Virus record (IMG/VR): IMGVR_UViG_3300035698_009643 | Coordinates: 1 to 44,800 of that record | Strand: one strand, 5' to 3' | From: a virus | Length of the DNA: 44,800 bases | Part shown: positions 7,874 through 44,092 of the stretch, piece after piece | Position numbering within the stretch: the stretch's first letter is position 1 | Layout of the letters: the number at the start of each line of letters is the position of its first letter | Program-made: the position numbers and the translations under genes | The notes under the pieces: generated by a model | What the model saw: only the letters and a program-made list of their open reading frames with translations | Told to the model about the DNA's origin: nothing | Databases searched by the model: none

Positions 7874-8268
7874 TTAAACTCGGAGCATTAGAATTACCAT
7901 GGGAACTTTTATGGTCGGATGAGTTTGCGTGGACTGGCGTAAACGCTTCACAGAAATATACCCTGACGGGTGGGTTGCATATTATGAAAACGGCACTTGA
8001 CTCCGGCCGCCCGATAACGCTAGTGAGTCAGGATGCTTGGATTACTCGTGCCGATCTTGAATCGCTTTATGTCATGGCGGCAAACGCTGAACCAGATAAC
8101 TGGCCCTTAACGTTACACGATGGCGTTGAGAGAGATGTGACGTTTCGACATTGGGAGCCGCCTGTTATTGAAGCAACACCAATCAAGAAAATGGCGAACC
8201 CTGAGACAAATGAAGAAACAGGAATTGGCGAAGAATATATATTATCTATTAAGTTGGTAGAGGTATGA
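7870..8268 (+). CDS. Small tail-tip protein
   Basis: A 132-residue beta-rich protein starting inside the tape measure stop. Features such as LPWELLWSDEFAW, TLTGGLHIM, SGRPITLV and LTLHDGVERDVTFRHWEPP resemble small minor tail proteins encoded directly after tape measure genes, where distal tail proteins usually sit. It overlaps the adhesin gene by 4 bases. I infer a structural role at the tail tip; no precise family was recognised. Confidence 0.55.
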   Translation: MIKLGALELPWELLWSDEFAWTGVNASQKYTLTGGLHIMKTALDSGRPITLVSQDAWITRADLESLYVMAANAEPDNWPLTLHDGVERDVTFRHWEPPVIEATPIKKMANPETNEETGIGEEYILSIKLVEV

Positions 8269-9695
8269 TTTTAGATCAACGACAATATGGTCCGGACTAC
8301 ATGAAAATTCCATACTGGAAGCTGAAAACGTCCTATAGCGTTAATGATCTTGTACGCCCTGATGCCGATAACGGCCTTGTATATAGAGCATTGAACAACG
8401 GCATATCAAGTAGCAAGCAAGCACCTACATGGCCTGCGGGTGTTGGTGAAACTGTTGCCGGGTTGTCAGGGCTCTTATGGGTTGCAGTATATGATCGAAC
8501 TTATAAAATTGCAATATCGGGGATGTGTTGCATGCATGAAGGGACAATAGCAGCGGGGGCCGGCGTACTTCAAGTCGGGCAAATCGTTGCGCTCAATTCT
8601 GTAACATATAAATGGTGTGGGTGGAGTAGGTCAAATGATAATGAAGAAGACATAGCACGCGGCATACTTGCTCATAATGTAGACGCAACAGACAGCGACC
8701 AGCGGGCGCAAATATACGGCGCGGGAGAATATGACTATTCTGCTATTTACTGGCAGACCGGCCACACTGGAAAATTCAGGGCGTATGCAATTGATCAACT
8801 TTCAAAGCGCGGGATTCTAATTAACGCTTCGGTAATAACAACCGTAACAACAACTACTAGCTCAACAACGTCTACAAGCTCAACGACAAGCACAACTAAT
8901 TCAACCACAAGTACAACTAGCTCAACCACGTCAACATCATCGAGTAGCTCAACCACTACAACAACAGGCATACCCCAACCGTGGACACCGAGTTTTATAA
9001 GCACTGAATTGTGGATTGACGAAAGCAGCATTGTTGAACTTGATTCTAGGGTTGCGCATTGGGATGACAAAAGCGGTAACGCCAGAAATTTTGTTCAAGG
9101 TATCACTGATAATAGACCAGTTGTGGCAACCAAAGGGAGTGATAATGTTGTGCAGTTTGACGGCGTTAATGACTTAATGACACAGGACGGGTTCATCACA
9201 CTTGGAAGTGTTGCATGTTTTATTGTTGGTCGATATATAACATACGCCGGGCCGTATGCCATTATTCATTCTCGTGGCGCTGACATTGAACCAGAAGCGG
9301 CATTTTATATAACAACTTCGCTTTCTGATGGAGGCCATTACAGGTTGAGGGTTGGGTCAGCGGCTGCGATTGGAACAGTGCCGTACGATGATGGGTGGCA
9401 CATTTTCGGCGGTTCACATATAGGTAACACTGTAAGCATACAGATTGATGGTTTGGAAGATGAGACTCAAACAAATAGTAACACTCCGACATTGAACAGG
9501 CTTGCGATAGGTTCATTTATAGATGAAGACGGGAATCCATTTTACAATTATTCTAATTGCGAGATTGCTGAAATAGTAATAGTAACTGCACTAACAAGTA
9601 AAGAAGAAATTGAAGGTTATCTCGCATGGAAGTGGGGTCTTGAAGATAGCCTACCAGTAGGCCACACATATAAAACTGAAAGGCCAATGATATAA
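8265..9695 (+). CDS. Tail adhesin: carbohydrate-binding-like N-terminus, gpD-like domain, Thr/Ser linker, LamG-type C-terminus
   Basis: 476 residues with four visible parts. Residues about 15-65 (WKLKTSYSVNDLVRP...VYRAL...PTWP) resemble the aromatic repeat of CBM5/12-like domains. Residues about 75-193 align by eye with the head decoration protein at 41193 (shared ARxILA-VD ... GxY ... I-x-L-x-x-GI-I). Residues 195-234 are 40 positions of Thr and Ser with one Asn. Residues about 240-476 form a concanavalin/LamG-like jelly roll ending in the family signature EGYLAWKWGL...LPVGHTY. The protein probably binds a host surface glycan. The Thr/Ser part would be an exposed spacer and possible O-glycosylation site. 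Confidence 0.8.
   Translation: MILDQRQYGPDYMKIPYWKLKTSYSVNDLVRPDADNGLVYRALNNGISSSKQAPTWPAGVGETVAGLSGLLWVAVYDRTYKIAISGMCCMHEGTIAAGAGVLQVGQIVALNSVTYKWCGWSRSNDNEEDIARGILAHNVDATDSDQRAQIYGAGEYDYSAIYWQTGHTGKFRAYAIDQLSKRGILINASVITTVTTTTSSTTSTSSTTSTTNSTTSTTSSTTSTSSSSSTTTTTGIPQPWTPSFISTELWIDESSIVELDSRVAHWDDKSGNARNFVQGITDNRPVVATKGSDNVVQFDGVNDLMTQDGFITLGSVACFIVGRYITYAGPYAIIHSRGADIEPEAAFYITTSLSDGGHYRLRVGSAAAIGTVPYDDGWHIFGGSHIGNTVSIQIDGLEDETQTNSNTPTLNRLAIGSFIDEDGNPFYNYSNCEIAEIVIVTALTSKEEIEGYLAWKWGLEDSLPVGHTYKTERPMI
8847..8966 (+). other. Thr/Ser tract inside the tail adhesin
   Basis: Forty consecutive residues (195-234) are Thr or Ser except one Asn. All four Thr codons and many of the six Ser codons are mixed, so the tract is not a simple slipped DNA repeat; selection seems to act on the protein. 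Confidence 0.9.
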
Positions 9696-11335: not shown

Positions 11336-12424
11336 ATGTCCATTATAGCGGCAGAATTGAAAATGTATAAGTCGGCAACCGTGAACGATCTTAACGCAAA
11401 CGGCGGGCGGTTGAGCTCTGCCGAGGTTCAAACGGGAATAAAAAACAACCTACTGCCAGACGTGACGCAAGCTCAACGAATCGCTGGCGTGGTTCAATAC
11501 CGAAAGGCGTTTTGGAAAATCGCACATGCTGATTATAATAACGGGCTTGACTACGCACAGACATTTTTAAAAAGCAGAACGCCCGGCGATGATATTTTGT
11601 ACATGTTTGCAGGGACACAAACAGATGTTCAATCAGGTATTTCAAGCCCGGACATATACGGCGTTGCGCCACTTAAAACATCCGTCACAACGGCAGATGA
11701 TGAGCTTATCGTTACGCTTGACGCTGATGAGGTAATTTACCGTATCGGGGATTATGTATATATTACCGACGGCGTTAATTCCGAAACCCTGTTATTGACA
11801 AACGTTTCAAAATCAAGCCTTGAAGTTACCCTTACTTTTGCCGCAGTATTCAGTTATAATTTTTCAAATGCTGATACGGTTGTCGCCAGCGTTCTTGAGC
11901 TGACCGATGAATGTATTTTTGATCTGACAGATATTACCGACGTGTCCGGTGTTTATGACTTTCCGCTTCAATGGCCGTATCTTGTTCTTGATTGTATCGG
12001 GGCTATATACCAGACGTGGACAATCGTTGTGGCAGAGGGTGGTGCTACGTTCTCATGCAGAGGTGATACGCTTGGCGAAATTGACGCGGCGCAATCTGTC
12101 AGCGCTGATTATGCACCGTCAAACTCTGACTTTCTGAAACCGTATTTCACAATATTATCAAGCGGATGGACGGGATTAGCAGGCACGATGACATTCATAA
12201 CGAAACCAGCGGCAGCGCCTGTTTGGTTTAAAAGGGTTGTCCCGGCTGGTACTGCATCGCAAACAACGAATACCTGCAACGCTACGCTGGAAGGCGAAGT
12301 CGTTGACGTGCGCACGCTGTATACAACCACGACAACGTCAACCACATCGTCAACCACAAGTTCGAGTTCAACTTCGAGTTCAACGACGAGCTCAAGTAGC
12401 ACCACGACAACGACAGCGCCCTGA
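11336..12424 (+). CDS. Tail structural protein with C-terminal Thr/Ser tract
   Basis: 362 residues. The first 329 form a globular beta-rich body with no recognised family (TADDELIVTLDADEVIYRIGDYVYI, FPLQWPYLVLDCIGAIYQTW). Residues 330-360 are 31 consecutive Thr/Ser, and the protein ends in Ala-Pro. Two other virion proteins of this phage, the decoration and tail tube proteins, also end in Thr/Ser tracts. The tail is likely disordered and surface exposed. The protein probably belongs to the tip or baseplate because the hub gene follows 2 bp later. Confidence 0.6.
   Translation: MSIIAAELKMYKSATVNDLNANGGRLSSAEVQTGIKNNLLPDVTQAQRIAGVVQYRKAFWKIAHADYNNGLDYAQTFLKSRTPGDDILYMFAGTQTDVQSGISSPDIYGVAPLKTSVTTADDELIVTLDADEVIYRIGDYVYITDGVNSETLLLTNVSKSSLEVTLTFAAVFSYNFSNADTVVASVLELTDECIFDLTDITDVSGVYDFPLQWPYLVLDCIGAIYQTWTIVVAEGGATFSCRGDTLGEIDAAQSVSADYAPSNSDFLKPYFTILSSGWTGLAGTMTFITKPAAAPVWFKRVVPAGTASQTTNTCNATLEGEVVDVRTLYTTTTTSTTSSTTSSSSTSSSTTSSSSTTTTTAP
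12323..12415 (+). other. C-terminal Thr/Ser tract of the 11336 tail protein
   Basis: Residues 330-360 are only Thr and Ser, followed by Ala-Pro and the stop. Codons are mixed (aca, acc, acg; tca, tcg, agt, agc), which argues for selection on the amino acids. Confidence 0.9.
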
Positions 12425-14545: not shown

Positions 14546-15814
14546 ATGAAAGAACGCATTGCAATCCTAACCAGCTTCAGGGAATTTAACCCCGGTTATT
14601 CTTTGACCGGAATAGTCCGCGATCAAATCAGGATGTTACAAGAGGCGGGGCATGAGGTTTCCTTGTTTGTGTGCGCTGATTATGATGACACGAAATATCC
14701 GGGGCCTGATGACTGCGAGATTTTAAAGGTCATGCCGAAGTGTAATTTAGTAGACTATCAAAGCAAAGAAGATATAAGCGAAGAGCATACAATTGTTGCT
14801 ACCGACACCGCTGCGGCACTGATAAATTCACTTGAAGGCTTTGACATTGTATTCACGCATGATTTGATATTTCAAGGTTGGTTTTTACCGTATGCATTCG
14901 GTATTCAATTGGCATCAGTAGCTTTACCCTGCGTGCGCGGGTGGTTGCATTGGATTCACAGCATACCCAGCGGAAGCCGTGATTGGTGGGGGATAAAGGA
15001 GTATGGCAATAATCATAAGCTGATTTTCCCAAACAAAACAGACTTGATCCGCGTTGCCGAACAGTACCGTGGAACGCTTGACGATGTGCGCTGCATACCG
15101 CATATCAAAGACCCGCGTTCATGGTTTGGTTTTTGTGAGCAAACGCTTGATATTATTAAAAAGGTTCCGGCGCTTTTGACCGCTGATTTCGTACAGGTAT
15201 TACCGGCATCAGTTGACCGGCTATCGGCAAAGCGGGTGCTTGAGGTTATGAAGATATTTGCAAACCTGAAATATTGCGGGTGTTCGGTTTGTCTGCTAAT
15301 TGCGAACCAGTGGGCAACCACAAACGTTCATAAAGAGTGCATCAGCAATTATGAATTTTATGCTCATAACTGCAATCTTGATATTAACAAGGACTTTGCA
15401 TTTACGTCCAGGCTTGGTGATTATGAAATTGGGCTGCCGCAGCAGGCAATTCGTGACTTACTTTTACTAAGCAACCTTTTTATATTCCCAACTCGTGAAG
15501 AAAGTTTCGGCCTTGTGGTTGCTGAATCCGGTTTAAGCGGTGCGCTGTTGGTGCTGAATAGGTCATTGCAAATGCAAATGGAAATTAGCGGCATGACCGG
15601 CCTTTACTTCGATTTCGGAAGTTACACGAATACTTTCAATGTTGTTGATGAGGAAGCATATTATCTTGACATTGCGAAAATCATTATTGGCAAAGCAGAG
15701 CAAGACAATGCCATTAAAAGCAAGACATTTTTCAGGCAGCACAATAACTGGACTGCGCTTTATAAAAACAGCTATCTGCCTATCTTTGGAGAATCCCTGA
15801 CATGGACACACTGA
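14546..15814 (+). CDS. GT-B glycosyltransferase (GT4-like)
   Basis: 422 residues, starting after AAAGGGG. The C-terminal half has the retaining GT-B signature FPTREESFGLVVAESG with E319-x7-E327, which positions the nucleotide-sugar donor in GT4 enzymes. The N-terminal half opens with ERIAILTSFREFNPGYSLTG, a GT-B-type start with a Gly-rich loop. It transfers a sugar from an activated donor to an unknown acceptor. First gene of nine overlapping or closely spaced genes for glycan or protein modification; overlaps the next by 13 bases. Confidence 0.82.
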   Translation: MKERIAILTSFREFNPGYSLTGIVRDQIRMLQEAGHEVSLFVCADYDDTKYPGPDDCEILKVMPKCNLVDYQSKEDISEEHTIVATDTAAALINSLEGFDIVFTHDLIFQGWFLPYAFGIQLASVALPCVRGWLHWIHSIPSGSRDWWGIKEYGNNHKLIFPNKTDLIRVAEQYRGTLDDVRCIPHIKDPRSWFGFCEQTLDIIKKVPALLTADFVQVLPASVDRLSAKRVLEVMKIFANLKYCGCSVCLLIANQWATTNVHKECISNYEFYAHNCNLDINKDFAFTSRLGDYEIGLPQQAIRDLLLLSNLFIFPTREESFGLVVAESGLSGALLVLNRSLQMQMEISGMTGLYFDFGSYTNTFNVVDEEAYYLDIAKIIIGKAEQDNAIKSKTFFRQHNNWTALYKNSYLPIFGESLTWTH

Positions 15815-16485
15815 AAATTGCTGCGGTCATTCCATCCGTTCATCCTGTTTTATTGCATGCGCTTTTAGAGTGTCTTGAAAAGGGAACTCGCAAGCCTGAT
15901 ATGCTGGTAATAATTGACAACAGTAAAGGCGGGATTAAAAATGTGGCCTTACGTTATTCAGGCCCGTTTCATATTGCGCGGACACGGACAAGGCTTACCG
16001 TTAATGAGTCATGGAATGTGGGCAAACAAATGACATCCGGTTTTGATGTTATATCGTTTTTAAATGATGATATTTTAGTAGGTGATAAGTTTTTTGAGAA
16101 GATAGAAACAGCGTTCAATAAGCTTGGCAAGAAGTGCGGCGTTGTCTGCCCTGCAACAACAAACGATTCAACAATATGGTCAATGCAACCGGATCACAGG
16201 GGCGGGGCGGGTGCTTATAGTGCAATGAGAACGCGCGAAGGGTGGGCGTTTAGTATCAGCAAAGAAGCATTGGCCGTATGCCCTTTAATCCCTGCCAATA
16301 TTCTAAAAACTTTTTGCGGTGATGATTGGCTTTGGTATTACACAAAAAAGGCAGGCTTTACATGGTATCAAGACTTGTCAAACCTGATTTATCATGCCGT
16401 TGGTAAAACTGTTAAAACTGAACAGGTTCGGGCAACACTAAAGCATGAGCGCCGGGAATTAAATCGGTTAATAGGTGAAGCATGA
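15802..16485 (+). CDS. GT-A glycosyltransferase (GT2-like)
   Basis: 227 residues. The start KIAAVIPSVHPVLLHALLECLE...MLVIIDNS has the GT2 nucleotide-binding pattern, and SFLNDDI (NDD at 88-90) takes the place of the metal-binding DxD. A second acidic site, FCGDDWLWYYTKKAG, would hold the catalytic base. The protein is shorter than many GT2 enzymes but spans the catalytic domain. It overlaps both neighbours, so it is translated with them. Donor and acceptor unknown. Confidence 0.75.
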   Translation: MDTLKIAAVIPSVHPVLLHALLECLEKGTRKPDMLVIIDNSKGGIKNVALRYSGPFHIARTRTRLTVNESWNVGKQMTSGFDVISFLNDDILVGDKFFEKIETAFNKLGKKCGVVCPATTNDSTIWSMQPDHRGGAGAYSAMRTREGWAFSISKEALAVCPLIPANILKTFCGDDWLWYYTKKAGFTWYQDLSNLIYHAVGKTVKTEQVRATLKHERRELNRLIGEA

Positions 16486-17561
16486 GAATAGTTTTTCTAT
16501 ATGCCGCAGACGGTCAAGCCTCTTTGGGTTCTAATCCTGAATGGAACAAGAAAGTACCACCTTCAAATCCGCTTGCCTGCGGTTTTCCTGATGAAGGTTA
16601 CTGTTCATATTTATGTGAACTTGTCAGGCAGCCGGGTCCGGTTTCTGAAGTTCTTATTGTGGTTGAATCAACTCGCGGGTGCGGCATGGCTGAAATTGAA
16701 GCCGGTGTCAATATCGTTGTCCTTCCCACTATTGATTACTTGACACCAATGCTACTGTCAGATGATGTAATATTTTGCCGTCACGGTTTCCGCACATGGT
16801 TTCCTTTTCTTGAAAGCCAATATAAGTCCGGGCGATGGATGCTGATGTACGGGGCAAACGGGGGCCGGGAGCGTTGGCGTGTTTGGCAGGTCATTTTTAA
16901 TGATTTAATTCCAGAAACTTATATGGATTCATGGGGAAGATTAAACCTTGAATTCAATAAACCTGTCAACACAAAAGTCTTTTATCATTCAGATGTGCCT
17001 AAAAAGTATGATTATATGATCGGCGCTTCACATATACACGACAAAAAGGGTCAGTATCGGGGCGTATTAGCCCTTTCACAGCATGCAGAGCAGAAAAGGC
17101 TATACCCGCCTACTATTTTGCCGGGGCGTGCCTTCAGGGGCGAACATAGCAACAACATTCAAGACATAATCAACCGTGGTGAGCTTAAAATTGAAACGCC
17201 GGGTATGCTGACCCGGCATGAACTTGCAAACCGGATGCGGGAAACCAAAACTTTTCTGCATTTTGGCTCCGGCCAGGGCGACAGATCGGTAATTGAGGCG
17301 GGTGCCTGCGGGTGCCAGATTGTAATTGCACAACCTAAATATCATAATCCTAAGATTGTCCGGGCTTCGCATGTTGTTGACCCTGATAATTTCAGTATTG
17401 AACAGATAAGCAAAAACACTATATTTGAATTTTCACACTTGTATGCTCATTGGTGGAAAAAGAATTTCGGCGCTGATGTTGTGGCACAATCACACCGGGC
17501 GCTCTATGAATTTATTGACCAAAATAAACCGGCTGACATAAAGGATTTAATCAATGGGTAG
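16482..17561 (+). CDS. Glycosyltransferase, GT-B type
   Basis: 359 residues. The C-terminal segment GSGQGDRSVIEAGACGCQIVIAQPKYHNP matches the donor-binding loop of GT4-like enzymes (small-residue loop followed by E-A-G/A-C-G). The N-terminal part (RIVFLYAADGQASLGSNPEWNKK...CRHGFRTW) fits an acceptor domain. A middle segment (DYMIGASHIHDKKGQYRGVLAL) starts the second Rossmann domain. Overlaps both neighbours by 4-8 bases. Glycosyl transfer is likely, specificity unknown. Confidence 0.68.
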   Translation: MRIVFLYAADGQASLGSNPEWNKKVPPSNPLACGFPDEGYCSYLCELVRQPGPVSEVLIVVESTRGCGMAEIEAGVNIVVLPTIDYLTPMLLSDDVIFCRHGFRTWFPFLESQYKSGRWMLMYGANGGRERWRVWQVIFNDLIPETYMDSWGRLNLEFNKPVNTKVFYHSDVPKKYDYMIGASHIHDKKGQYRGVLALSQHAEQKRLYPPTILPGRAFRGEHSNNIQDIINRGELKIETPGMLTRHELANRMRETKTFLHFGSGQGDRSVIEAGACGCQIVIAQPKYHNPKIVRASHVVDPDNFSIEQISKNTIFEFSHLYAHWWKKNFGADVVAQSHRALYEFIDQNKPADIKDLING

Positions 17562-18069
17562 ATTTACAAAAGGGCGGCACACATACGGCGGGATAAAAGT
17601 ACCGTTAAGGGGCCGGGTTGAGGCCGGTGCGTTTTGCTCTATTGCTGACAATGTGATTGCAGTAATGGAAGGCCACAGGCATGATTGGATTTCAACTTTT
17701 CCTTTTACTGGCAGGCATTTCAATAACGTTTGGGGCGACGTTCCTGCATACCCGCGAGTGACAAATGGTGATATTCTAATAGGATCTGATGTTTGGATAG
17801 GGCAGAACGTTGTTCTGCTTTCTGGCATTACTATTTGCCCCGGCGCTGTAATTGGTGCGGGTGCGGTTGTAACAAAAGATGTCGGCCCGTATGAGGTTGT
17901 GGGCGGTGTGCCTGCAAAACTTATCAAGCGCCGATTTTCAAAGCAAAACATTACCGAGCTTTTAAAGATTGCGTGGTGGCATTGGCCTGATGCAAAGATT
18001 AAAACCGCATTGCATTTTTTGATGCAAAATGATATTGACAAATTTATAAACCAATACAGAGAGGGTTGA
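17554..18069 (+). CDS. Hexapeptide-repeat acyltransferase (CatB/XAT-like)
   Basis: 171 residues with a left-handed beta-helix: IGSDVWIGQNVVLLSGITICPGAVIGAGAVVTKDVGPYEVVGGVPAKLIKRR is the standard ending of xenobiotic and sugar acetyltransferases. GHRHDW at 40-45 with STFPF carries the catalytic His of the CatB group. Such enzymes transfer acetyl or similar groups from acyl-CoA to sugar hydroxyls or amines as trimers. Among glycosyltransferases it most likely acylates a sugar of the phage-made glycan. Confidence 0.88.
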   Translation: MGRFTKGRHTYGGIKVPLRGRVEAGAFCSIADNVIAVMEGHRHDWISTFPFTGRHFNNVWGDVPAYPRVTNGDILIGSDVWIGQNVVLLSGITICPGAVIGAGAVVTKDVGPYEVVGGVPAKLIKRRFSKQNITELLKIAWWHWPDAKIKTALHFLMQNDIDKFINQYREG

Positions 18070-18071
18070 TC

Positions 18072-18587
18072 ATGGCGTTTATGGAATACCGTGAAGTGTT
18101 AAGAGAAATAATGAAAATTGCACAGCCTGAAATATATGTCGAGATTGGCATATTGCGGGCAGGTACTTTCAACATGGTTGCCCCGTTTGCCAAGCGTGCT
18201 GTTGCTGTTGACCGTAACGGTTGCGAGTACGTTGTCAAAAGCCCAAACGTGGAAATATTCCTCGGCTATTCTGATGAATTTTGGGCGCAATGGAAAGACC
18301 CGATTGACATTTGCTTTATTGATGCAGATCACAGCAAAGAAGCGGTGCTGAAAGATTTTCACAATGCTGCAAAGTTTATCAAAGAAGGCACCGGCATGAT
18401 CTTTATGCACGACACATACCCTGCAAGCCGTGAGTGGACAGCGCCGGACAAATGTTCGGATGCTTATGCGGCCGCATGGGAGATAAGAACACAATTTAAA
18501 GAGTTTGAATTTGCAACATTTCCATGGGGCGGTGCTGGTTTATCAGTTGCCCGGCTTGCTCCTAAACATTTACACTGGGAGAGATAA
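18072..18587 (+). CDS. Class I SAM-dependent methyltransferase (Methyltransf_24-like)
   Basis: 171 residues from ATG 18072, placed 7 bases after GAGGG. The motif YVEIGILRAGTFNMV is a SAM-binding motif I, RAVAVDRNG is motif II, and DICFIDADHSKEAVLKDF is the acidic motif of the Methyltransf_24/cephalosporin-hydroxylase-like group, often found in glycan clusters. MIFMHDTYPASREW follows. It probably methylates a sugar or glycan intermediate; no DNA methylase motif (NPPY) is present. Confidence 0.75.
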   Translation: MAFMEYREVLREIMKIAQPEIYVEIGILRAGTFNMVAPFAKRAVAVDRNGCEYVVKSPNVEIFLGYSDEFWAQWKDPIDICFIDADHSKEAVLKDFHNAAKFIKEGTGMIFMHDTYPASREWTAPDKCSDAYAAAWEIRTQFKEFEFATFPWGGAGLSVARLAPKHLHWER

Positions 18588-18589
18588 CC

Positions 18590-19138
18590 ATGAAAAACAT
18601 AAACACACATTTTAATAAAGCATACTTTGAGAGCCGGAAACATATTGCATGGCGCAGTGATGTTGTGGCACAATCAATTTTAGCTTTTTGCCCTGACGTT
18701 GATAGCGTTGTTGATGTTGGCTGTTCTATTGGTGACATTGTAGCGGGGCTGTTTAATGAAGGGATTAAAACGGTTCAAGGCATTGACGGGGCATATGAAG
18801 CAAAGCAACAGTATATTGGCCCGCCCGATACCTATATTCATCAAGACATGCGGAAAAGTTTGACCGGATTACATCTTGATTTATGTTGTTGCTTTGAAGT
18901 GTTCCAATATATCGAACAACAATATCAACAGACATTTCTTAACAATATACGAAAGCTATCAAAGAAAATACTTATCAGCGCCCCTGAAGAACTTCGTGAC
19001 GGTGTGCGGATTCACATGATTTCAAACAAATACCACGAAAAAGACATTACATCTTTTCGCGTATCACTTGAACACCTAAAGACAAAGCCTGCCATCAAGG
19101 GCATATATCACAACAGCATGTATTTTGAAAAGGCATAA
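18590..19138 (+). CDS. Class I SAM-dependent methyltransferase
   Basis: 182 residues, 2 bp after the preceding methyltransferase. VVDVGCSIGDIVAGL is motif I (usually DVGCGxG; here Ser replaces the second Gly), VQGIDGAYEAKQQY motif II, LDLCCCFEVFQYIEQQYQQTFLNNI the post-III segment. It is short at the C-terminus compared with typical Methyltransf_11/23 proteins but the core is complete. A role in glycan or glycolipid modification is inferred from context. Confidence 0.7.
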   Translation: MKNINTHFNKAYFESRKHIAWRSDVVAQSILAFCPDVDSVVDVGCSIGDIVAGLFNEGIKTVQGIDGAYEAKQQYIGPPDTYIHQDMRKSLTGLHLDLCCCFEVFQYIEQQYQQTFLNNIRKLSKKILISAPEELRDGVRIHMISNKYHEKDITSFRVSLEHLKTKPAIKGIYHNSMYFEKA

Positions 19139-19141
19139 GCC

Positions 19142-19879
19142 ATGATTGACATTTGCACGACCGCAACGATAAGGCCGGACATTCTCAACCGGACACTTGA
19201 GAGCTTTAAGAGGAACTTGCTGCACGATTACCCTGCCAGAATGATAGTCAACATCGATCCTGTTGGCGAACACAAGAACGCTCAAGAGGTTGTTGATGTT
19301 TGCCGCAGGTATTTCAATGCTCCCGTAATCCGGTTTGCCGATAAACCCTCTTTCCCGAAAGCATTTTTGTGGTGCTGGCAACATGTTGAAGCACCGTATG
19401 TTTTACAGCTTGAAGATGATTGGGAATTGCTTGAACCTGTTTCACTTGCCGATATGATTGCAGAACTTGAGCTCGGGAAAAATCTTGCAATGCTCAGGCT
19501 TTCGGCTTTCCGTTCTGGTATGCATAACGCAAAGCACTGGAATAAATTTCTTGATTGGAACGGGAGTTTTTTTGAAGTGGCAGAACAGGACCGGCGCCGC
19601 ATTGGTTTCTGCGGGCATCCGGCATTGATAAAACGGGAATGGATTCAGGAAGTATTACCGTTAATGAACACAATCAAAAACCCTGAAAAGCAATTACAAT
19701 TGCCCGAGCATAATTCAAACGATCTTCTTATAAGTGTTCTCGGATGGCGCTATGGTGTTTATCAGCAACAGGAAAAACCCGCACAGATTAAAGATATTGG
19801 ACGAGATTGGATTGCTGAAAGTGGGTGGAAGAAAAGGGGCAATAAAGCCTATTTTGTAGAATGGGAACGGGCTGAATAA
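19142..19879 (+). CDS. GT-A-type glycosyltransferase
   Basis: 245 residues. ICTTATIRPDILNRTLESFKRNLL at the N-terminus is the start of a GT-A nucleotide-binding fold, APYVLQLEDDWELLEP contains the metal-binding EDD (91-93), and IGFCGHPALIKREW plus the LPEHNSNDLLIS segment cover acceptor and catalytic sites. The next gene starts on the last base of its stop. Glycosyl transfer is likely; donor unknown. Confidence 0.75.
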   Translation: MIDICTTATIRPDILNRTLESFKRNLLHDYPARMIVNIDPVGEHKNAQEVVDVCRRYFNAPVIRFADKPSFPKAFLWCWQHVEAPYVLQLEDDWELLEPVSLADMIAELELGKNLAMLRLSAFRSGMHNAKHWNKFLDWNGSFFEVAEQDRRRIGFCGHPALIKREWIQEVLPLMNTIKNPEKQLQLPEHNSNDLLISVLGWRYGVYQQQEKPAQIKDIGRDWIAESGWKKRGNKAYFVEWERAE

Positions 19880-20676
19880 TGGGAAAAATACCGTGTAGAA
19901 ATGTATTTGAACTTGATGTTACATGGCGTTGTAATTTGTCGTGTGCAAACTGTACGCGCCGTTGTGATATTCTTAGTTCAGATAAAAGTGAAGATATGGG
20001 CCCTTCATTTTTTGAAGACCAATTGAAAATTGATCATGACTGGCATCGGATTTTTATCATGGGCGGCGAACCTACCCTGCACCCGCGCTTGATGGAATTT
20101 ATTGATATATTCAAGCGATACCGAAAAGACAAAAACCCAAAGTGCGAACTGACTATTGTTTCAAACGCTCACGGCTCAATGGTCAACAAGGTGCTTGATT
20201 CAATCCCTGCTGATATATTTATTCGGCGGGCTGATAAGTTTGATTCTAAATGTATTGAAGGCACGCAACCCAAAGACTTTTGGACAAACAACATTGCGCC
20301 GGCTGACTTCAAGTGTTTTGATGGTGAGCAATTTACTTTTTGCGGTCAACAGAAACGGTGCGGGCTTCAGCTCACAATAAACGGCTGGTATCATTGTTCA
20401 ATGATCGGCGGGATTGATAGGGTATTCGGTTTGGGCGGTGACACCCTTGCCGGTACGCTTGCAAATCCGCGATGGCATGATTTCTGCCGGTTGTGCGGGC
20501 GTATGCGGATGTCATATATTCAGCAGCATGGCAATTCCCCTGACTTCCAATTACCTGAAGATAAATTAAAACAGCTTAAATCGTCACTTAAAAAATGGCC
20601 TCTAAAATCAGACCAAAGTTTTGTTTCAAAAACCTATAGAGAAAGGCTTAAAAAATGTCAGAACAAAGCATTGTAA
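19879..20676 (+). CDS. Radical SAM enzyme
   Basis: 265 residues. CNLSCANC (C18, C22, C25) is the CxxxCxxC motif that binds the catalytic [4Fe-4S] cluster, and MGGEPTLHPR (61-70) is the SAM-binding GGEP segment. Later cysteines (CGQQKRCGLQLTINGWYHC and CRLCGR) are arranged like the auxiliary-cluster region of SPASM/twitch proteins, with fewer ligands. Such enzymes do radical chemistry on peptides, sugars or cofactors. Here it lies between two GT-A enzymes, so modification of a sugar or of the acceptor peptide is plausible. Its reaction cannot be read from the sequence. Confidence 0.85.
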   Translation: MGKIPCRNVFELDVTWRCNLSCANCTRRCDILSSDKSEDMGPSFFEDQLKIDHDWHRIFIMGGEPTLHPRLMEFIDIFKRYRKDKNPKCELTIVSNAHGSMVNKVLDSIPADIFIRRADKFDSKCIEGTQPKDFWTNNIAPADFKCFDGEQFTFCGQQKRCGLQLTINGWYHCSMIGGIDRVFGLGGDTLAGTLANPRWHDFCRLCGRMRMSYIQQHGNSPDFQLPEDKLKQLKSSLKKWPLKSDQSFVSKTYRERLKKCQNKAL

Positions 20677-21632
20677 AAGGCAAGCTGTCAATAATTATCC
20701 CAACAGCGAACGAATGGCCTGTAATAGCTTTCACGGCGCGTGCTGTAATGGAAGAACTTCGCGGCCGCGTTGATTATGAATTGATCATCGTTGATAATTG
20801 GTGTCCCGAGCTTGAAGCACAGGGCAGGGAACGCGACCGGACATTTGAATATTTTGAGTCAATGATGCGGGGATGGCCGGAACTGAAAATCCTTAATTAT
20901 AACGGTAAATTATCACACTGGAACGCTAAGAAGTTAGGCGTGGCAGAAAGCACCGGCGAATTCATACAGTTTCTTGATGCGCATGTAATACCGTCCCGCG
21001 ATGCAATTTTCAATCAATACAACTTTTACCGGGAAAACCATCAGGAATTAAACGGCGTTTTGCACATGCCTGTAACGTATCATGTGATGGAATATCACAA
21101 GCTGATGTATAAATTGGTGACGGACATCCCTAAAGGCCATGTGCATTACAGCTTTACAGGCTACAGGGAAGCCGATTTGCCATATACAGTGCCTTGCATG
21201 ACCACAGACGGTATCATGATGACCCGCGAGCTATACGATGCAATGGGCGGCTTTCCTGAGATGCTTGGCATATGGGGCGGGGGCGAAAATTTCGTTAATT
21301 TTACCATTGCAGTTATGGGTAAAAATGTATGGATGTGCGCCGGCAAAGGCATGAACGGCACTTTAAACCACCATGGAGACAAGCGCGGTTATTCATATAA
21401 CTATGATGACCTTTGTCGGAATAGATGCGTAGCGGCTTTCATGTACGGCGGTAAGTCATTTGCAAGAACCACGATGAATAATTACAAGGGCTCACCATCG
21501 CAAATTTTACGAATATACAATCAGGTTATAAACGATAAGGCATGTATTGCACAGCGGGCAATTATTGAAGCGCAACAGGTAATGAGTATTCAGGAATGGT
21601 CGGAAAAATGGATTGAGAAAGCAGCCAAGTGA
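20655..21632 (+). CDS. GT2/GT27-like glycosyltransferase with DxH and WGG-EN motifs
   Basis: 325 residues, overlapping the radical SAM gene by 22 bases. KLSIIIPTANEW and YELIIVDN are the GT-A start. FLDAHVIPS carries DAH at 108-110 in place of DxD. This is the metal-binding variant found in polypeptide GalNAc-transferases, and the preceding LGVAESTGEFIQ matches their G-A-x-x-A-x-G-x-V pattern. MGGFPEMLGIWGGGENF (about 197-213) resembles their GG-D-x-x-x-x-WGGEN segment with one extra Gly. No ricin-type lectin domain follows. I infer that it glycosylates Ser/Thr, but GT2 enzymes of other specificity can carry similar motifs. Confidence 0.78.
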   Translation: MSEQSIVKGKLSIIIPTANEWPVIAFTARAVMEELRGRVDYELIIVDNWCPELEAQGRERDRTFEYFESMMRGWPELKILNYNGKLSHWNAKKLGVAESTGEFIQFLDAHVIPSRDAIFNQYNFYRENHQELNGVLHMPVTYHVMEYHKLMYKLVTDIPKGHVHYSFTGYREADLPYTVPCMTTDGIMMTRELYDAMGGFPEMLGIWGGGENFVNFTIAVMGKNVWMCAGKGMNGTLNHHGDKRGYSYNYDDLCRNRCVAAFMYGGKSFARTTMNNYKGSPSQILRIYNQVINDKACIAQRAIIEAQQVMSIQEWSEKWIEKAAK

Positions 21633-21666
21633 TCCCAAACTAAAAAAACGATCATGACTGCTTATA

Positions 21667-21692
21667 GCGCCCCTTGAAAGAGGGGCGCTTTT
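21667..21692 (+). terminator. Rho-independent terminator closing the glycosylation cluster
   Basis: GCGCCCCT (21667-21674), a 6-base loop, AGGGGCGC (21681-21688) and TTTT. It lies between convergent genes; on the minus strand a T7 run follows the same hairpin after about 15 bases, so it may work in both directions. Confidence 0.85.
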
Positions 21693-27414: not shown

Positions 27415-28002
27415 TTATTTGTTTTTATGAACCTTGACTAGCTTTTTATCAAGAACATAAATTAAACCGTTTTTTCTATATAATGAATTGTTATAGAGTT
27501 TTGCCGATGAATTGTCATAGAGTTCTGCCGATGAATTGTTATAGAGTTCTGCCGATGAATTACTACAGAGTACTGCCGATGAATTGTTATAGAGTTCTGC
27601 CGATGAATTCTCCCGGAGTACTGCCGATGAATTACCATAGAGTTTTGCCGATGAATTTTTCAAATAGCAAATAGTGTTTTTAATTACTTTGTTTTTTACG
27701 CCACTAAAAACCTGCATTGACACCGCCTTTTTAAGCGCAACACGGCATTTTTTCTCAAGAGAATCACGCCACCATGTAGGAACAATGCTTTGGTCAATCT
27801 CGAAAATCCACTTTTTTAAATCTTGCTCAAACTTATCACCGTTTGGCGGTATGATTTCAACCCTTGCAAACTTCATTTTTTTAGGGTCTATGGTGTCATC
27901 TATTAGCCCCAACGATTCAACTATATCCTCGTGTGAATCACTTGTTGTGCTATAGTGAACTTCGCCGTCTCTTGTTACTATAAATGATTTAAACTGGCAC
28001 AT
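27415..28002 (-). CDS. Phage protein with C-terminal 8-residue NSSA-x-L repeats
   Basis: 195 residues. The N-terminal 115 (MCQFKSFIVTRDGEVHYSTTSDSHEDIVESLGL...) form a compact alpha/beta domain of a kind I recall from other phage proteins, without known function. Residues 116-171 are seven units of NSSA-x-L-x-x, then a degenerate unit. The period of eight differs from the five-residue repeat of classic pentapeptide proteins; a right-handed solenoid is possible. The unit number is likely variable through 24-bp DNA repeat slippage. Confidence 0.65.
   Translation of the reverse strand: MCQFKSFIVTRDGEVHYSTTSDSHEDIVESLGLIDDTIDPKKMKFARVEIIPPNGDKFEQDLKKWIFEIDQSIVPTWWRDSLEKKCRVALKKAVSMQVFSGVKNKVIKNTICYLKNSSAKLYGNSSAVLRENSSAELYNNSSAVLCSNSSAELYNNSSAELYDNSSAKLYNNSLYRKNGLIYVLDKKLVKVHKNK
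27490..27657 (-). repeat. Seven tandem 24-bp coding repeats
   Basis: Seven imperfect 24-bp units code for NSSA-x-L-x-x. Substitutions keep N, S, S, A and L and vary the last two positions, so protein-level selection is visible. No spacers, so it is not a CRISPR array. Confidence 0.85.
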
Positions 28003-28913: not shown

Positions 28914-30644
28914 CTAGTTTTCAATGATTAATATAGCGGTATTAACTCCGGTTCCTGCATTTTTAAATGTACCGGCGGGCAGGTCTTCCCAAAAGTGTTC
29001 GCCTGTTTTAAATTCTGCCTGTTGCCGTGGCCCGTTTGCACATATGGCGACCAACACCCCGCCCGGTTTCAAGTGGTGCAGCGCGTGTTTTATGTGCTTT
29101 ATATCGTCGGCATTTTTAAAAGGCGGATTCATAATAATTTTATCGAACATGCCAAGATCAGCGTTGCAGTTCAAAAAATCGTCACATACCACTTTATCAG
29201 CAATGGGCTTCAATCCTTCTGCCAGGTTATAATTGATTTCAACAGCGGTCACAGATCCGTTCGGGCGTATGTTGTGCATTGCCTGAATCAGCTTGCCAGT
29301 TCCCGCGCTTGGCTCCAGGACAGAATCGCCGGGTTCAATCCGGGCGTATTCAATAACCTTTTCGGCTATGTCCTGCGGTGTTTCAAATAGCTGGTCGGCA
29401 ACAACCACTTTAACCCCTGTTTTAAGCTGTTCTTTTAAATCGTCAAATTTGTTTCTTTCCGGCGGCGTGTATACCGGGCGCGTGTCGGCGCGGTGAATGC
29501 GCTCCGGTTCCGGCTGCTTTTCTGGTTCCGGTTGTGTTGGTTCCGGTACCAGGTGTGTTTTTGAGTCTGTTAAAAAAACAACAAATCGCTCATAGTTTCC
29601 AAGCTTATGAGAGGCGCACATTCTCACGCGATGGTTTTTGTTAATAACGACAGTATACCGGCTATCGGTATAAATATTACTGTATTCAGCTTTTGTCATT
29701 TCTACCTGTTTGCGTAGTTGTGTTTCGTCGTTGGGGTTGTAACCGCGCTTTTCAACCTGCAGCCCTTCCGGGGCGCGGTAATTTAAAAGCGGTAATTGTT
29801 TCGGGCGGGCTTTTGGTTCAAGCCGGGCGCTTTCACCCTGTTCGCCTAACATGGCTTTTTCATATATCAGGCGGTTGTCGTTATGGGCAATACTGCGGGC
29901 ATATCTTTTTTCAATATCAGGAAAACTGCTTTCTTGGATCCAACCGTTCCCCCGGCCCATATAAATATGAACTGTCTTGATCTTTGCTTCCGGGTGGTCT
30001 TTGCAATAATAAGCCCAGCATATGGGGCAATAAGTTGGCTCCTGCATTATCTTGATAACTTTTTTCGGCGGTATATAACATGAAATCATTTTTCTGTTTT
30101 CAGCTTCAATCTTTTTAATGCGGCGAACCCGGACATCGGGCCGTTCAAGGTATTTAGCATGTGACAGGGCACCGGCTGCGCGGCGCGTCCAATATTCTGA
30201 AGTGTCCCAAAGTTTAATGGCGTTCCGCATACCGTTTTCAATTTTTTGCTGATCGCGGCGTGCGTGCTTTTCTGAATGGTGCCCAACTAAAATCGGTTGG
30301 CCCATCGGTATTCCGTCCGCTATTCCCTGGACTGTGGCGTGTGCTTGGTGCGCTTCAGCTTCTCTTTTACTACTGTATGCATCAAACCTATCAGCGCGAT
30401 CTTTAGCGCGATCTGCAAGCGTTGTATCTTCATCCTCAATTTCAGGGCAAAATAGAAGTGCTACATCTTCCCGGGCCGGTGTCCATCTGGGGGCGAAAAA
30501 CAGTTCTTGTTTCGGTGCCCATGAATAACCGGCCTTTTTCAGTTTCAAATAATCTTCTTTATCAAAACGATACGCAGGGTAGATTCTGATTTTGTTGTCT
30601 TCCGGTGAGTATGTTGCGCGATGGTCTTTTGTGTTTTCGGTCAT
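28914..30644 (-). CDS. DUF3560-containing DNA methyltransferase (NPPF)
   Basis: 576 residues. The N-terminus (ATYSPEDNKIRIYPAYRFDKEDYLKLKKAGYSWAPKQELFFAPRWTP) and helical segment to about 190 match DUF3560. A central linker is rich in Pro/Glu (PEPTQPEPEKQPEPERIH). The C-terminal 170 residues hold a gamma-like methyltransferase: LEPSAGTGKLIQAM is motif I, IIMNPPFKN (near 505) motif IV. NPPF is typical of N6-adenine enzymes. The fusion is frequent on mobile elements; it would modify phage DNA, perhaps against restriction. Confidence 0.82.
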   Translation of the reverse strand: MTENTKDHRATYSPEDNKIRIYPAYRFDKEDYLKLKKAGYSWAPKQELFFAPRWTPAREDVALLFCPEIEDEDTTLADRAKDRADRFDAYSSKREAEAHQAHATVQGIADGIPMGQPILVGHHSEKHARRDQQKIENGMRNAIKLWDTSEYWTRRAAGALSHAKYLERPDVRVRRIKKIEAENRKMISCYIPPKKVIKIMQEPTYCPICWAYYCKDHPEAKIKTVHIYMGRGNGWIQESSFPDIEKRYARSIAHNDNRLIYEKAMLGEQGESARLEPKARPKQLPLLNYRAPEGLQVEKRGYNPNDETQLRKQVEMTKAEYSNIYTDSRYTVVINKNHRVRMCASHKLGNYERFVVFLTDSKTHLVPEPTQPEPEKQPEPERIHRADTRPVYTPPERNKFDDLKEQLKTGVKVVVADQLFETPQDIAEKVIEYARIEPGDSVLEPSAGTGKLIQAMHNIRPNGSVTAVEINYNLAEGLKPIADKVVCDDFLNCNADLGMFDKIIMNPPFKNADDIKHIKHALHHLKPGGVLVAICANGPRQQAEFKTGEHFWEDLPAGTFKNAGTGVNTAILIIEN

Positions 30645-34239: not shown

Positions 34240-34863
34240 ATGAGAGTTGAAACTGTTAAGCAGCAAACTGAATATCGGCAGTTAAAAACCCTGAAAAAAT
34301 ACCCCGGTAATCCCCGCATTATAAAAGATCAACAGTTTAAAACTCTATGTATTTCAATTAAAGAAAACCCTGATTACTTTGAGGCAAGGCCGATCATATT
34401 GTCCGACAGAACAGGCGACCTGATAATCATTGCAGGAAACCAGCGGTATGAAGCAGCAAAGGCAAACGGCCTGAAAGAAGCACAGACATTTTTAATGTCC
34501 GGCTTAACAGATGAAAAAGAAAAAGAAATTGTAATACGCGATAATATTTCAAATGGTGATTTTGATTGGGACATACTGGCAAACGAGTGGGCGGAAATGC
34601 CGCTTGAAGATTGGGGTATTGATTTGCCAGATTATGCCGCAGGGCATGAAGCAAATTCAATGGATGAAAATAATATTGATTTAGAACAGGAATTTGATCC
34701 CGTTGGAGTTTCAAAAGGATATCAAAAAATAGTTATAACATTTAAAAATAAGGAAGATGCAGATATGTGGGTCAATATCCATCCTGAAATAATGCCATTT
34801 TTTAGAAAGCAAAACATGGCTTGGACCATAGATTACACTAGCGGGTATAAAGAAAATGAATGA
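34240..34863 (+). CDS. ParB/Srx-fold protein
   Basis: 207 residues. YPGNPRIIKDQQFKTLCISIKENPDYFEARPIILSDRTGDLIIIAGNQRYEAAKANGLKEAQTFLMSGLTDEKEKEIVIRDNISNGDFDWDIL is a ParB-N-type domain: N-P-R, A-G-N-Q-R-Y/W-E-A-A. Standalone phage ParB proteins are not segregation proteins; they are often linked to DNA methylases or base modification. It overlaps the TAGT-like gene by 8 bases, which supports a joint function. Confidence 0.85.
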   Translation: MRVETVKQQTEYRQLKTLKKYPGNPRIIKDQQFKTLCISIKENPDYFEARPIILSDRTGDLIIIAGNQRYEAAKANGLKEAQTFLMSGLTDEKEKEIVIRDNISNGDFDWDILANEWAEMPLEDWGIDLPDYAAGHEANSMDENNIDLEQEFDPVGVSKGYQKIVITFKNKEDADMWVNIHPEIMPFFRKQNMAWTIDYTSGYKENE

Positions 34864-35593
34864 ATACCCTGTTTATATAATTTCCAAAGGCCGCTATAAA
34901 AAAACATTGACCGCCGACTTATTTGGAAATGCAAATATTTTTTATCAAATTGCAGTAGAGCCACAAGAGTATGATTTATATTGTAATAAGCTCGGTAAAG
35001 AAAAAGTTTTAAAACTCCCCTTTGCAAATTTAGGGCTTGGAAGTTATCCAGCAAGAAATTATTGCTGGGAACATGCAAAAACAAGGGGGTATAAATACCA
35101 TTGGTTGTTTGATAATAATATCTTAAATTTTAAACAGTGGATAACGGGTAAAAGACGGAACATTAGCAATATTGGTACAGCGTTAGAGTATGTAGAAACT
35201 TATATATATAAAAACAATATAGATATTGGTGGGTTTGAAGAACCAAATATGTCGGTCAGGGTACCAAAAAGGCCATTTAAAAATCAATGCCATCTTTACT
35301 CTGCAATGCTTATAAAAACAAGTTTGCCATATCGTTGGCGGTTAAAATATAATGAGGATGTAGACCTTTGTTTGCAGGTTTTGCATGGCGGCGGCAGTAC
35401 CGGATCATGTATTTATTATTTAGCAGACAAGGTATCAACAGCATGCAAGCAAAAAGGCGGCAATCAAATAGAACTTTATCAAGGTAATAAGCCATCAAAA
35501 AATCTACTAAAAGCAAAAATGCTTGAAGCTGTTTGGCCTCAGTATACAAAAACAGTTATCAGGTTTGGGCGTCATCATCATTATATTAACTAG
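34856..35593 (+). CDS. TET-associated-type glycosyltransferase (TAGT-like)
   Basis: 245 residues. YPVYIISKGRYKKTLTADLF..., VEPQEYDLYCNKLG, LPFANLGLGSYPARNYCWEHAKTRGYKYHWLFDNNILNFKQ, LPYRWRLKYNEDVDLCLQVLHGG, and the ending RFGRHHHYIN follow the TAGT family pattern as I recall it. TAGT enzymes are predicted (Iyer and colleagues) to glycosylate hydroxylated DNA bases made by TET/JBP oxygenases. The metal site reads FDNNI instead of DDN. No TET/JBP gene or nucleotide hydroxymethylase is seen in the window, so its hydroxylated substrate is unexplained. Confidence 0.75.
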   Translation: MNEYPVYIISKGRYKKTLTADLFGNANIFYQIAVEPQEYDLYCNKLGKEKVLKLPFANLGLGSYPARNYCWEHAKTRGYKYHWLFDNNILNFKQWITGKRRNISNIGTALEYVETYIYKNNIDIGGFEEPNMSVRVPKRPFKNQCHLYSAMLIKTSLPYRWRLKYNEDVDLCLQVLHGGGSTGSCIYYLADKVSTACKQKGGNQIELYQGNKPSKNLLKAKMLEAVWPQYTKTVIRFGRHHHYIN

Positions 35594-41192: not shown

Positions 41193-41684
41193 ATGGCTAC
41201 CGGAACTTTAGGAACAATAAAAACAGCAGGGTCGGAAGATTCTCAGCTTATTGCCAGTGATGGTTGTAAGCAGAAACTGATTCAGCTCAAGGCAGACGTT
41301 GGCGATCTTGACCGAGGAACAGTCATGGCCATGAACACCACAACTTTTTTGTGGGAACAGCACGATCAAGACGGTTCAACCGGCGTGAATGTTGCGCGGT
41401 GTATACTTGCCGTTGATGTAGACGATGACACTTCAGCACAGGAATCCATTGGATTCTTTATCGGTAAGTACCGACTTGATGATCTGATTTTTCAAACCGA
41501 CATTACCCGCACCGAAACTGCTCAAGCAATCAGTGAGCTCGCAGATGTTGGTATTGAAATTGATGAATCATATATCGGCACAGTTACAAGTACCACAACC
41601 AGTTCAACTACCAGCACCACGACAAGTACAAGCACCACAAGCTCAACTACGAGTTCCACAACGACTACCACAAGCGGCGGTTGA
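41193..41684 (+). CDS. Head decoration protein (gpD-like) with C-terminal Thr/Ser tract
   Basis: 163 residues just before the major capsid gene. LKADVGDLDRGTVMAMNTTTFLWEQHD ... VARCILAVDVD ... SIGFFIGKYRLDDLIFQTDI ... ISELADVGIEIDESY fits the HDPD (lambda gpD) pattern: a G-x-V strand, A-x-x-I-L-x-x-D-V, G-x-Y and a final GI-x-I. Residues 132-161 are 30 Thr/Ser and the protein ends Gly-Gly. As gpD binds capsid three-fold sites from outside, the tract should project from the head. Strong AAGGAAAGGAATT before ATG 41193. Confidence 0.82.
   Translation: MATGTLGTIKTAGSEDSQLIASDGCKQKLIQLKADVGDLDRGTVMAMNTTTFLWEQHDQDGSTGVNVARCILAVDVDDDTSAQESIGFFIGKYRLDDLIFQTDITRTETAQAISELADVGIEIDESYIGTVTSTTTSSTTSTTTSTSTTSSTTSSTTTTTSGG
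41586..41675 (+). other. C-terminal Thr/Ser tract of the head decoration protein
   Basis: Residues 132-161 contain only Thr and Ser, in mixed codons (aca, acc, acg, act; agt, agc, tca, tcc). Similar runs end the tail tube and 11336 proteins. Confidence 0.9.
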
Positions 41685-43501: not shown

Positions 43502-44092
43502 ATGGCCGATCAATATGCAGCACCGAACCCATCGAACAATCTTACAATACCGAAAGGTATTTTGTATGTTGCTCCGTGGTCCGGGTATACGCCGCCAACA
43601 GATGACGATTTTGTCGATGTTGGTAACGCTACCGCCGTGACCGTTGAGCCTACCCGCGAGAAACTGGAGCATTTTTCATCGCGCGCTGGCACGAAAACCA
43701 AAGACAGAACAGCCGAAATTTCATCTGGGTATAATATCAACTTTACACTTGACGAGTTATCCCTGGCGAATATGGCTATGTTCTTGCGTGCAACCATTTC
43801 AGAAAGCGAGTTCCTGCTTGCCAATGAAAACATCGGTGGTTTTTATGCCTGCCGTTTCATTGCTGATAACAGTTACGGTCGCGCATATAATATTAACTGC
43901 TGGAAAGTTGAAATTGCACCTGAAGGCGCGTTCAGTTTGATTGGTGATGAATGGACTACAATGGGTTTTTCAGGCGAAGGTCTGGACGACACTGCGAACC
44001 ACCCTACATCACGTTTCTTCTCCATGCGTTTCACTGATGCGGTTGCTGGTACGACTACCAGTTCGACAACTACCACGACCACAGCACCATAA
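43502..44092 (+). CDS. Major tail tube protein with C-terminal Thr/Ser tract
   Basis: 196 residues after TAGGAGGACTAAAC. IPKGILYVAPWSGYTPPTDDDFVDVGNATAVTVEPTREKLEHFSSRAGTKTKDRTAEISSGYNINFTLDELSLANMAMFL matches tail tube proteins (K-G-I-L-Y-V-A ... G-N-x-x-x ... DELS-x-x-N-x-A-x-FL). Residues 184-194 are Thr/Ser, then Ala-Pro. The C-terminus of tube proteins is generally outside, so the tract would coat the tube. A terminator follows at 44122. Confidence 0.82.
   Translation: MADQYAAPNPSNNLTIPKGILYVAPWSGYTPPTDDDFVDVGNATAVTVEPTREKLEHFSSRAGTKTKDRTAEISSGYNINFTLDELSLANMAMFLRATISESEFLLANENIGGFYACRFIADNSYGRAYNINCWKVEIAPEGAFSLIGDEWTTMGFSGEGLDDTANHPTSRFFSMRFTDAVAGTTTSSTTTTTTAP
44051..44083 (+). other. 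C-terminal Thr/Ser tract of the tail tube protein
   Basis: Residues 184-194, eleven Thr/Ser with mixed codons, followed by Ala-Pro and stop; shorter than the other three tracts. The ending TTTTTTAP is like the TTTTTAP of the 11336 product. Confidence 0.88.

Follow-up and report, generated by a model that had tools for sequence, protein, structure and literature searches.

We report a predicted lectin-free relative of the eukaryotic GT27 polypeptide GalNAc-transferases, encoded by an uncultured phage and probably responsible for sugar-coating its virion, as its fold and its genomic association suggest. The 44,800 bases analysed, hereafter the window, make up a single IMG/VR virus record; its genes for a terminase, a portal and for lambda-D-like decoration, major head, major tail and tape-measure proteins mark it as a siphophage. 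With a probability of about two in three, we propose that the product of the gene at 20655-21632 (+ strand), P0001, transfers sugar to Ser/Thr tails of the phage's own capsid-decoration and tail proteins, and that the cassette in which the gene resides extends and caps the resulting glycan. A broader reading, which we favour a little less firmly, is that tailed phages run their own mucin-type O-glycosylation, combining a GT27-like initiator, a glycan cassette and mucin-like domains on non-homologous capsid or tail proteins to yield a glycan-coated virion.

The P0001 ORF encodes 325 residues from an ATG start and shares its first 22 nt with the radical-SAM ORF that precedes it. The motifs on which the initial annotation had based a likeness to polypeptide GalNAc-transferases were located at the residues it had given, FLDAH at 106-110 and IWGGGEN at 206-212 (WGGGEN at 207-212), and the GVAESTGEF lead-in lies at 95-103. 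These motifs are not fortuitous, since P0001 matches the Pfam family Glycos_transf_2 (E 3.6e-11) and both the DxH motif and the G209-G210-E211 triplet are invariant in the 23 aligned members of the family (32-50% identity). The invariant positions comprise D108, H110, G209, G210, E211, H239, R244 and Y246, as well as L86, S87, H88, W89 and K92 of the KLSHWNAK block (residues 85-92, 20907-20930), a near-invariant signature of the family. The DAH segment (residues 108-110, 20976-20984) corresponds to the DxH metal/UDP motif, the GGGEN segment (208-212, 21276-21290) is the counterpart of WGGEN, and HHGDKRGY (239-246, 21369-21392), all on the + strand, is the counterpart of the GalNAc-T loop that holds the third metal His and contacts UDP, its H239...R244.Y246 residues aligning with the GalNAc-T 'GHxFRKRxPY' loop in the comparison of the family profile with the PDB. 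The WGG-EN motif as originally described held only in part: its GGGE core stands, while position 207 is Tyr rather than Trp in most members and N212 is variable, which makes [Y/W]GGGE the conserved form. The extra Gly, already noticed in this one protein, proved to be family-wide, and it is this residue, rather than the Trp, that is a trait of the phage family. Most members have MSTCGMM in the segment opposite 'AGGLF' of the GalNAc-Ts, and donor specificity may therefore differ.

Searched alone against all PDB sequences, P0001 had GalNAc-T10 as its best match (E 7e-5). The family profile retrieved GalNAc-T10, T9, T4, T12, Toxoplasma GalNAc-T3, T7, T1 and T2 (E 2e-11 to 1e-5), with alignments spanning profile positions 4-266, the whole catalytic domain, and pairing DxH with DxH, [Y/W]GG with WGG and H.....R.Y with GHxFRKRxPY. 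By contrast, heparosan synthase, TarP-type, TagF and similar GT2s matched within the first ~120 profile positions only; P0001 carries DxH in place of a DxD motif and has no full-length match to polysaccharide or lipid-linked GT2 synthases. An AlphaFold2 model computed from the family alignment reached a pLDDT of 94.4 and a pTM of 0.92, and its best 50 Foldseek matches in the PDB were all GalNAc-Ts (top E 3e-16, TM 0.74 by query). Two of the checks proposed in the initial annotation, profile comparison (here against PDB sequences) and structure prediction, favoured GalNAc-Ts over the lipid- or polysaccharide-specific GT2 placement that it had named as the outcome speaking against its claim. NCBIfam returned generic glycosyltransferase matches only, far under the cut-offs, and Pfam assigned PF00535 only, with no match to PF20691 (TET-associated glycosyltransferase) and no ricin-type lectin domain within the 325 residues, in keeping with the absence of this domain noted earlier. 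Taken together, profile and predicted fold show P0001 as a putative metal-dependent GT-A glycosyltransferase, a stripped-down relative of the eukaryotic GT27 catalytic domain.

Members of this family were recovered from about 25 IMG/VR records and one Desulfobacterota prophage. A degenerate DNA pattern (GEF..F.D.H / FLDxH) yielded two IMG/VR relatives (~50% identity), and an alignment built on these two gave access to the about 25 records. No viral relative was returned by peptide-pattern scans with P0001, with Tunturi_4 gp2 or with the two-sequence alignment. An initial MGxxVW/H/GY pattern hit 19 loci, none of them related, and a scan of bacterial genome contigs brought up mainly DxD GT2s related in their N-terminal half only; both were set aside. 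The family was not found in 50,697 named phage records, except for one distant relative, Tunturi_4 gp2, the only near-full-length one among them (~25% identity), and it was found in none of the terminase relatives of the window phage, which then served as controls. The Desulfobacterota member (genome G261, E 5e-134) sits in a prophage (G261:C2, about 353-388 kb; L304, L305) together with the cassette core and with homologues of the major head protein, the tape measure and the GT4 partner of the window phage. G389, another Desulfobacterota prophage, encodes the GT4 partner as well as a GT2 homologue, but no member of the GT27-like family. Two more phylum-wide samples, of 392 and 398 genomes, contained no member, an absence that is weak evidence. 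The GT27-like gene is present in two tandem copies in locus L207 and in three in L210, an arrangement reminiscent of the GalNAc-T isoforms.

In the window, the P0001 gene is the last of a cassette (14546-21632) whose genes all lie on the + strand, as do the tail genes immediately before them; the cassette encodes five glycosyltransferases, two methyltransferases, an acyltransferase and a radical-SAM protein. The cassette opens with a GT4-like GT-B glycosyltransferase (14546-15814), the steadiest partner of the GT27-like enzyme, followed by a GT2-like glycosyltransferase (15802-16485), a second GT4-like GT-B glycosyltransferase (16482-17561), a hexapeptide-repeat acyl/acetyltransferase (17554-18069), a Methyltransf_24 methyltransferase (18066-18587), a methyltransferase with weak class-I matches (18590-19138), a GT-A-like glycosyltransferase with a LEDDW motif (19142-19879) and a radical SAM protein (19879-20676); a terminator-like hairpin (21666-21689, + strand) closes it. 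The other glycosyltransferases and the methyltransferases, including the one at 18590-19138, recur across the family cassettes. The acyltransferase and radical-SAM genes appear to be accessory, as neither was seen in two syntenic relatives. The radical SAM protein, whose gene overlaps the start of the GT27-like gene, could modify a sugar or a peptide.

The + strand of the window encodes four segments of near-pure Ser/Thr, 11-43 residues long: three C-terminal tails and one linker, all of which we propose as acceptors. The tails belong to the lambda-D-like head decoration protein (41193-41684; tail 41580-41675), to the major tail protein (43502-44092; Thr/Ser tail 44051-44083) and to a protein of the tail-gene region (11336-12424; tail 12323-12415), and the linker to a second decoration-domain virion protein (8265-9695; linker 8838-8966). 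The four Thr/Ser-rich virion proteins mentioned in the initial annotation are thus real, and the link it had drawn between enzyme and tracts from this single genome holds across phages. Under a strict rule of at least 17 Ser/Thr in 20 residues within an ORF, 14 of the 16 viral records that bear the family (34-142 kb, of which up to 80-100 kb was read) have tracts, in 1-6 ORFs each, whereas the 11 terminase-related records that lack it (about 590 kb) have none (Fisher p 6e-6). No tract was detected in 117 other viral loci (1.15 Mb) or in 51 bacterial loci. When the G261 prophage is added, the count is 14/17 by the strict rule and 16/17 with interrupted or frameshifted tracts. Among the strict misses, G048 has a reading-frame break just before the tract TTTTTTTTTTTSSSSSSTTTTTA, and the notion that this phage is devoid of a tract was accordingly rejected; G261 displays TTTTEEE (T4E3) repeats on several proteins and no pure Ser/Thr tracts; and G054, a 34 kb fragment in which the cassette occupies the end of the contig, has no tract. 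The G389 prophage has no Ser/Thr or Thr cluster, and its major tail protein homologue ends without a Thr tail. Since G389 keeps the GT4 partner and lacks both the DxH enzyme and the tracts, the tracts follow the DxH enzyme in this one prophage.

The virion proteins that bear the tracts differ between phages and are not homologous; a major head protein (phrog_29, E 7e-50) is one of them, a tail protein another. Comparison of the decoration-protein tract of the window with that of the relative L086 revealed 21 identical codons, 13 synonymous and 1 non-synonymous (a Ser/Thr swap), indicating that selection keeps the tract residues as protein. Two further layouts were observed. Proteins encoded upstream of the cassette in L254 (G061) have Cys scattered through their Ser/Thr tracts (SSTTSSSTCSTCSTSS), which gives these tracts another chemistry, and L216, L244, L247 and L256 encode, near their cassettes, very large proteins of 700-1580 aa with Ser/Thr tracts in a mucin-like layout, for which no PHROG match was obtained among those tested.

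The GT4-like enzyme at 14546-15814, nearly as tightly linked, could be the initiator, with the DxH enzyme adding the second sugar. GtfA-type GT4 enzymes add the first sugar on serine-rich repeat proteins, and the window's enzyme has a GT4-like fold (pLDDT 92.5), is 41-51% identical over its length in most members and accompanies the family in 22 of 26 records, the other four all being 16-21 kb fragments. However, its nearest folds are small-molecule and polysaccharide GT4s, BshA and MshA, at a low TM of about 0.36, and G389 possesses it without the DxH enzyme and without Ser/Thr tracts. We therefore regard initiation by the GT4-like enzyme as unlikely, though deserving of attention. Co-inheritance could also inflate the association between tracts and enzyme, and some records do have synteny in common; yet it is very improbable that both were simply inherited together within one phage lineage without any functional link, given the divergence of the members from the window's enzyme, the non-homology of the tract-bearing proteins, the variety of tract forms (pure S/T, S/T/C, T4E3) and the relative, G389, that lacks enzyme and tracts alike.

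Two other readings direct the cassette to different acceptors. If it made a lipid- or surface-linked host glycan, as in O-antigen or capsule conversion, the Ser/Thr tails would be plain flexible linkers. The PHROG label of a weak match, GtrB-like O-antigen conversion, points that way, and surface glycans typically have multi-glycosyltransferase cassettes with methyl- and acetyltransferases. Nevertheless, profile and fold are of GalNAc-T type, not of GtrB/DPM type, and a GtrB-like identity of P0001 was rejected on these grounds. In addition, none of the window ORFs scanned was recognised as an integrase, so nothing there points to lysogenic conversion; the cassette comes after the tail genes, and the Ser/Thr association would be left unexplained. 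We consider a host glycan improbable. Hypermodification of phage DNA, with glycosylated bases as product, seems scarcely credible. Several glycosyltransferase families do act on phage DNA, and the window encodes a TET-associated glycosyltransferase domain protein (34856-35593; PF20691, E 4e-28), but this is a separate gene that adjoins a ParB-like gene, distant from the cassette. No TET/JBP oxygenase or hydroxymethylase match was recognised among the window ORFs scanned, and this reading, too, leaves the Ser/Thr association unexplained.

Three other window genes deserve mention. The virion structural protein encoded at 104-1318, just upstream of the endolysin gene, contains a GDSL lipase/esterase domain and might deacylate a glycan. 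The 195-aa product of 27415-28002 contains about seven 8-residue repeats of LYNNSSAE type, encoded by a 24-bp tandem array (27483-27657). Finally, 28914-30644 encodes a protein with DUF3560 and methyltransferase domains that shows a weak likeness to DarB-type antirestriction proteins.

Returning to glycosylation of the virion by the GT27-like enzyme, we propose that P0001 would bind a UDP-sugar with Mn2+ through D108, H110 and H239, and that the Ser/Thr tails would fill its peptide groove and receive the first sugar on their Ser/Thr hydroxyls. By analogy with GT27, P0001 may be the enzyme that adds this first sugar, and the sugar may be GalNAc. Ser/Thr peptides are its presumed acceptors, a proposal supported by the co-occurrence of enzyme and tracts and by G389, which lacks both, and the peptides TTTSSTTTTTTAP and TSTTTSTSTTSSTT are candidate Thr/Ser acceptors. 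The remaining glycosyltransferases of the cassette would lengthen the glycan, methyl and acetyl groups would cap it, and the outcome would be a mucin-like glycan coat over the head and tail of the virion.

To our knowledge, mucin-type O-glycosylation by GT27 enzymes is generally viewed as a eukaryotic trait, and we found no report of a phage GT27 enzyme in the literature searched, the coverage of which is incomplete. A counterpart in prokaryotic viruses would be the lectin-free GT27-like enzyme that uncultured phages, including a Desulfobacterota prophage, carry in association with mucin-like virion tails. If this is true, P0001, compact and apparently soluble, could serve to O-glycosylate Ser/Thr peptides and, as a distant relative, help to reconstruct the history of GT27; it would also suggest reasons, open to testing, for phages to coat their particles, be it shielding, surface binding or stability. 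The Ser/Thr tail itself is a simple sequence marker with which further systems could be found.

Among the closest known systems are the mycobacteriophage glycosyltransferases Che8 gp110 and Corndog gp38, which are likewise phage-encoded and which, according to the accounts of Freeman et al. 2023 given in PMC12363180 and PMC12619734, glycosylate capsid and tail tube proteins. No homology was detectable between Che8 gp108-110 and any cassette protein, and a Che8-type identity for the cassette enzymes was rejected on that basis; the Che8 major capsid and tail proteins examined have no near-pure Ser/Thr tail. One Methanobrevibacter smithii protein has been predicted to be GalNAc-T-like (PMC10939349). 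Gp2 of the Tunturiibacter phage Tunturi_4 resembles P0001 in its DxH motif, its KRGY loop and its closest PDB matches, which are GalNAc-Ts, but it is about 25% identical, stands alone between the terminase and portal genes and belongs to a phage without Ser/Thr tracts; a GalNAc-T-like fold alone therefore does not imply Ser/Thr acceptors. The GT2s that make polysaccharides and teichoic acids (PF00535, PF10111) have the superfamily and the N-terminal nucleotide-binding half in common with P0001, whereas the bacterial relatives found have DxD instead of DxH and match in this half only. Nearly all animal GT27 members have a C-terminal ricin-type lectin domain. The phage enzyme, 325 aa long and 12-19% identical to the solved GT27 enzymes, differs from them in lacking this domain, in its extra Gly and in the Tyr that mostly replaces the Trp. 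With GalNAc-T10, T2, T4, T12 and Toxoplasma GalNAc-T3 it nonetheless shares the GT-A fold, the DxH and [W/Y]GG-E motifs, and the downstream His and Arg..Tyr loop, and the dense Ser/Thr segments of the virion would be its proposed acceptors.
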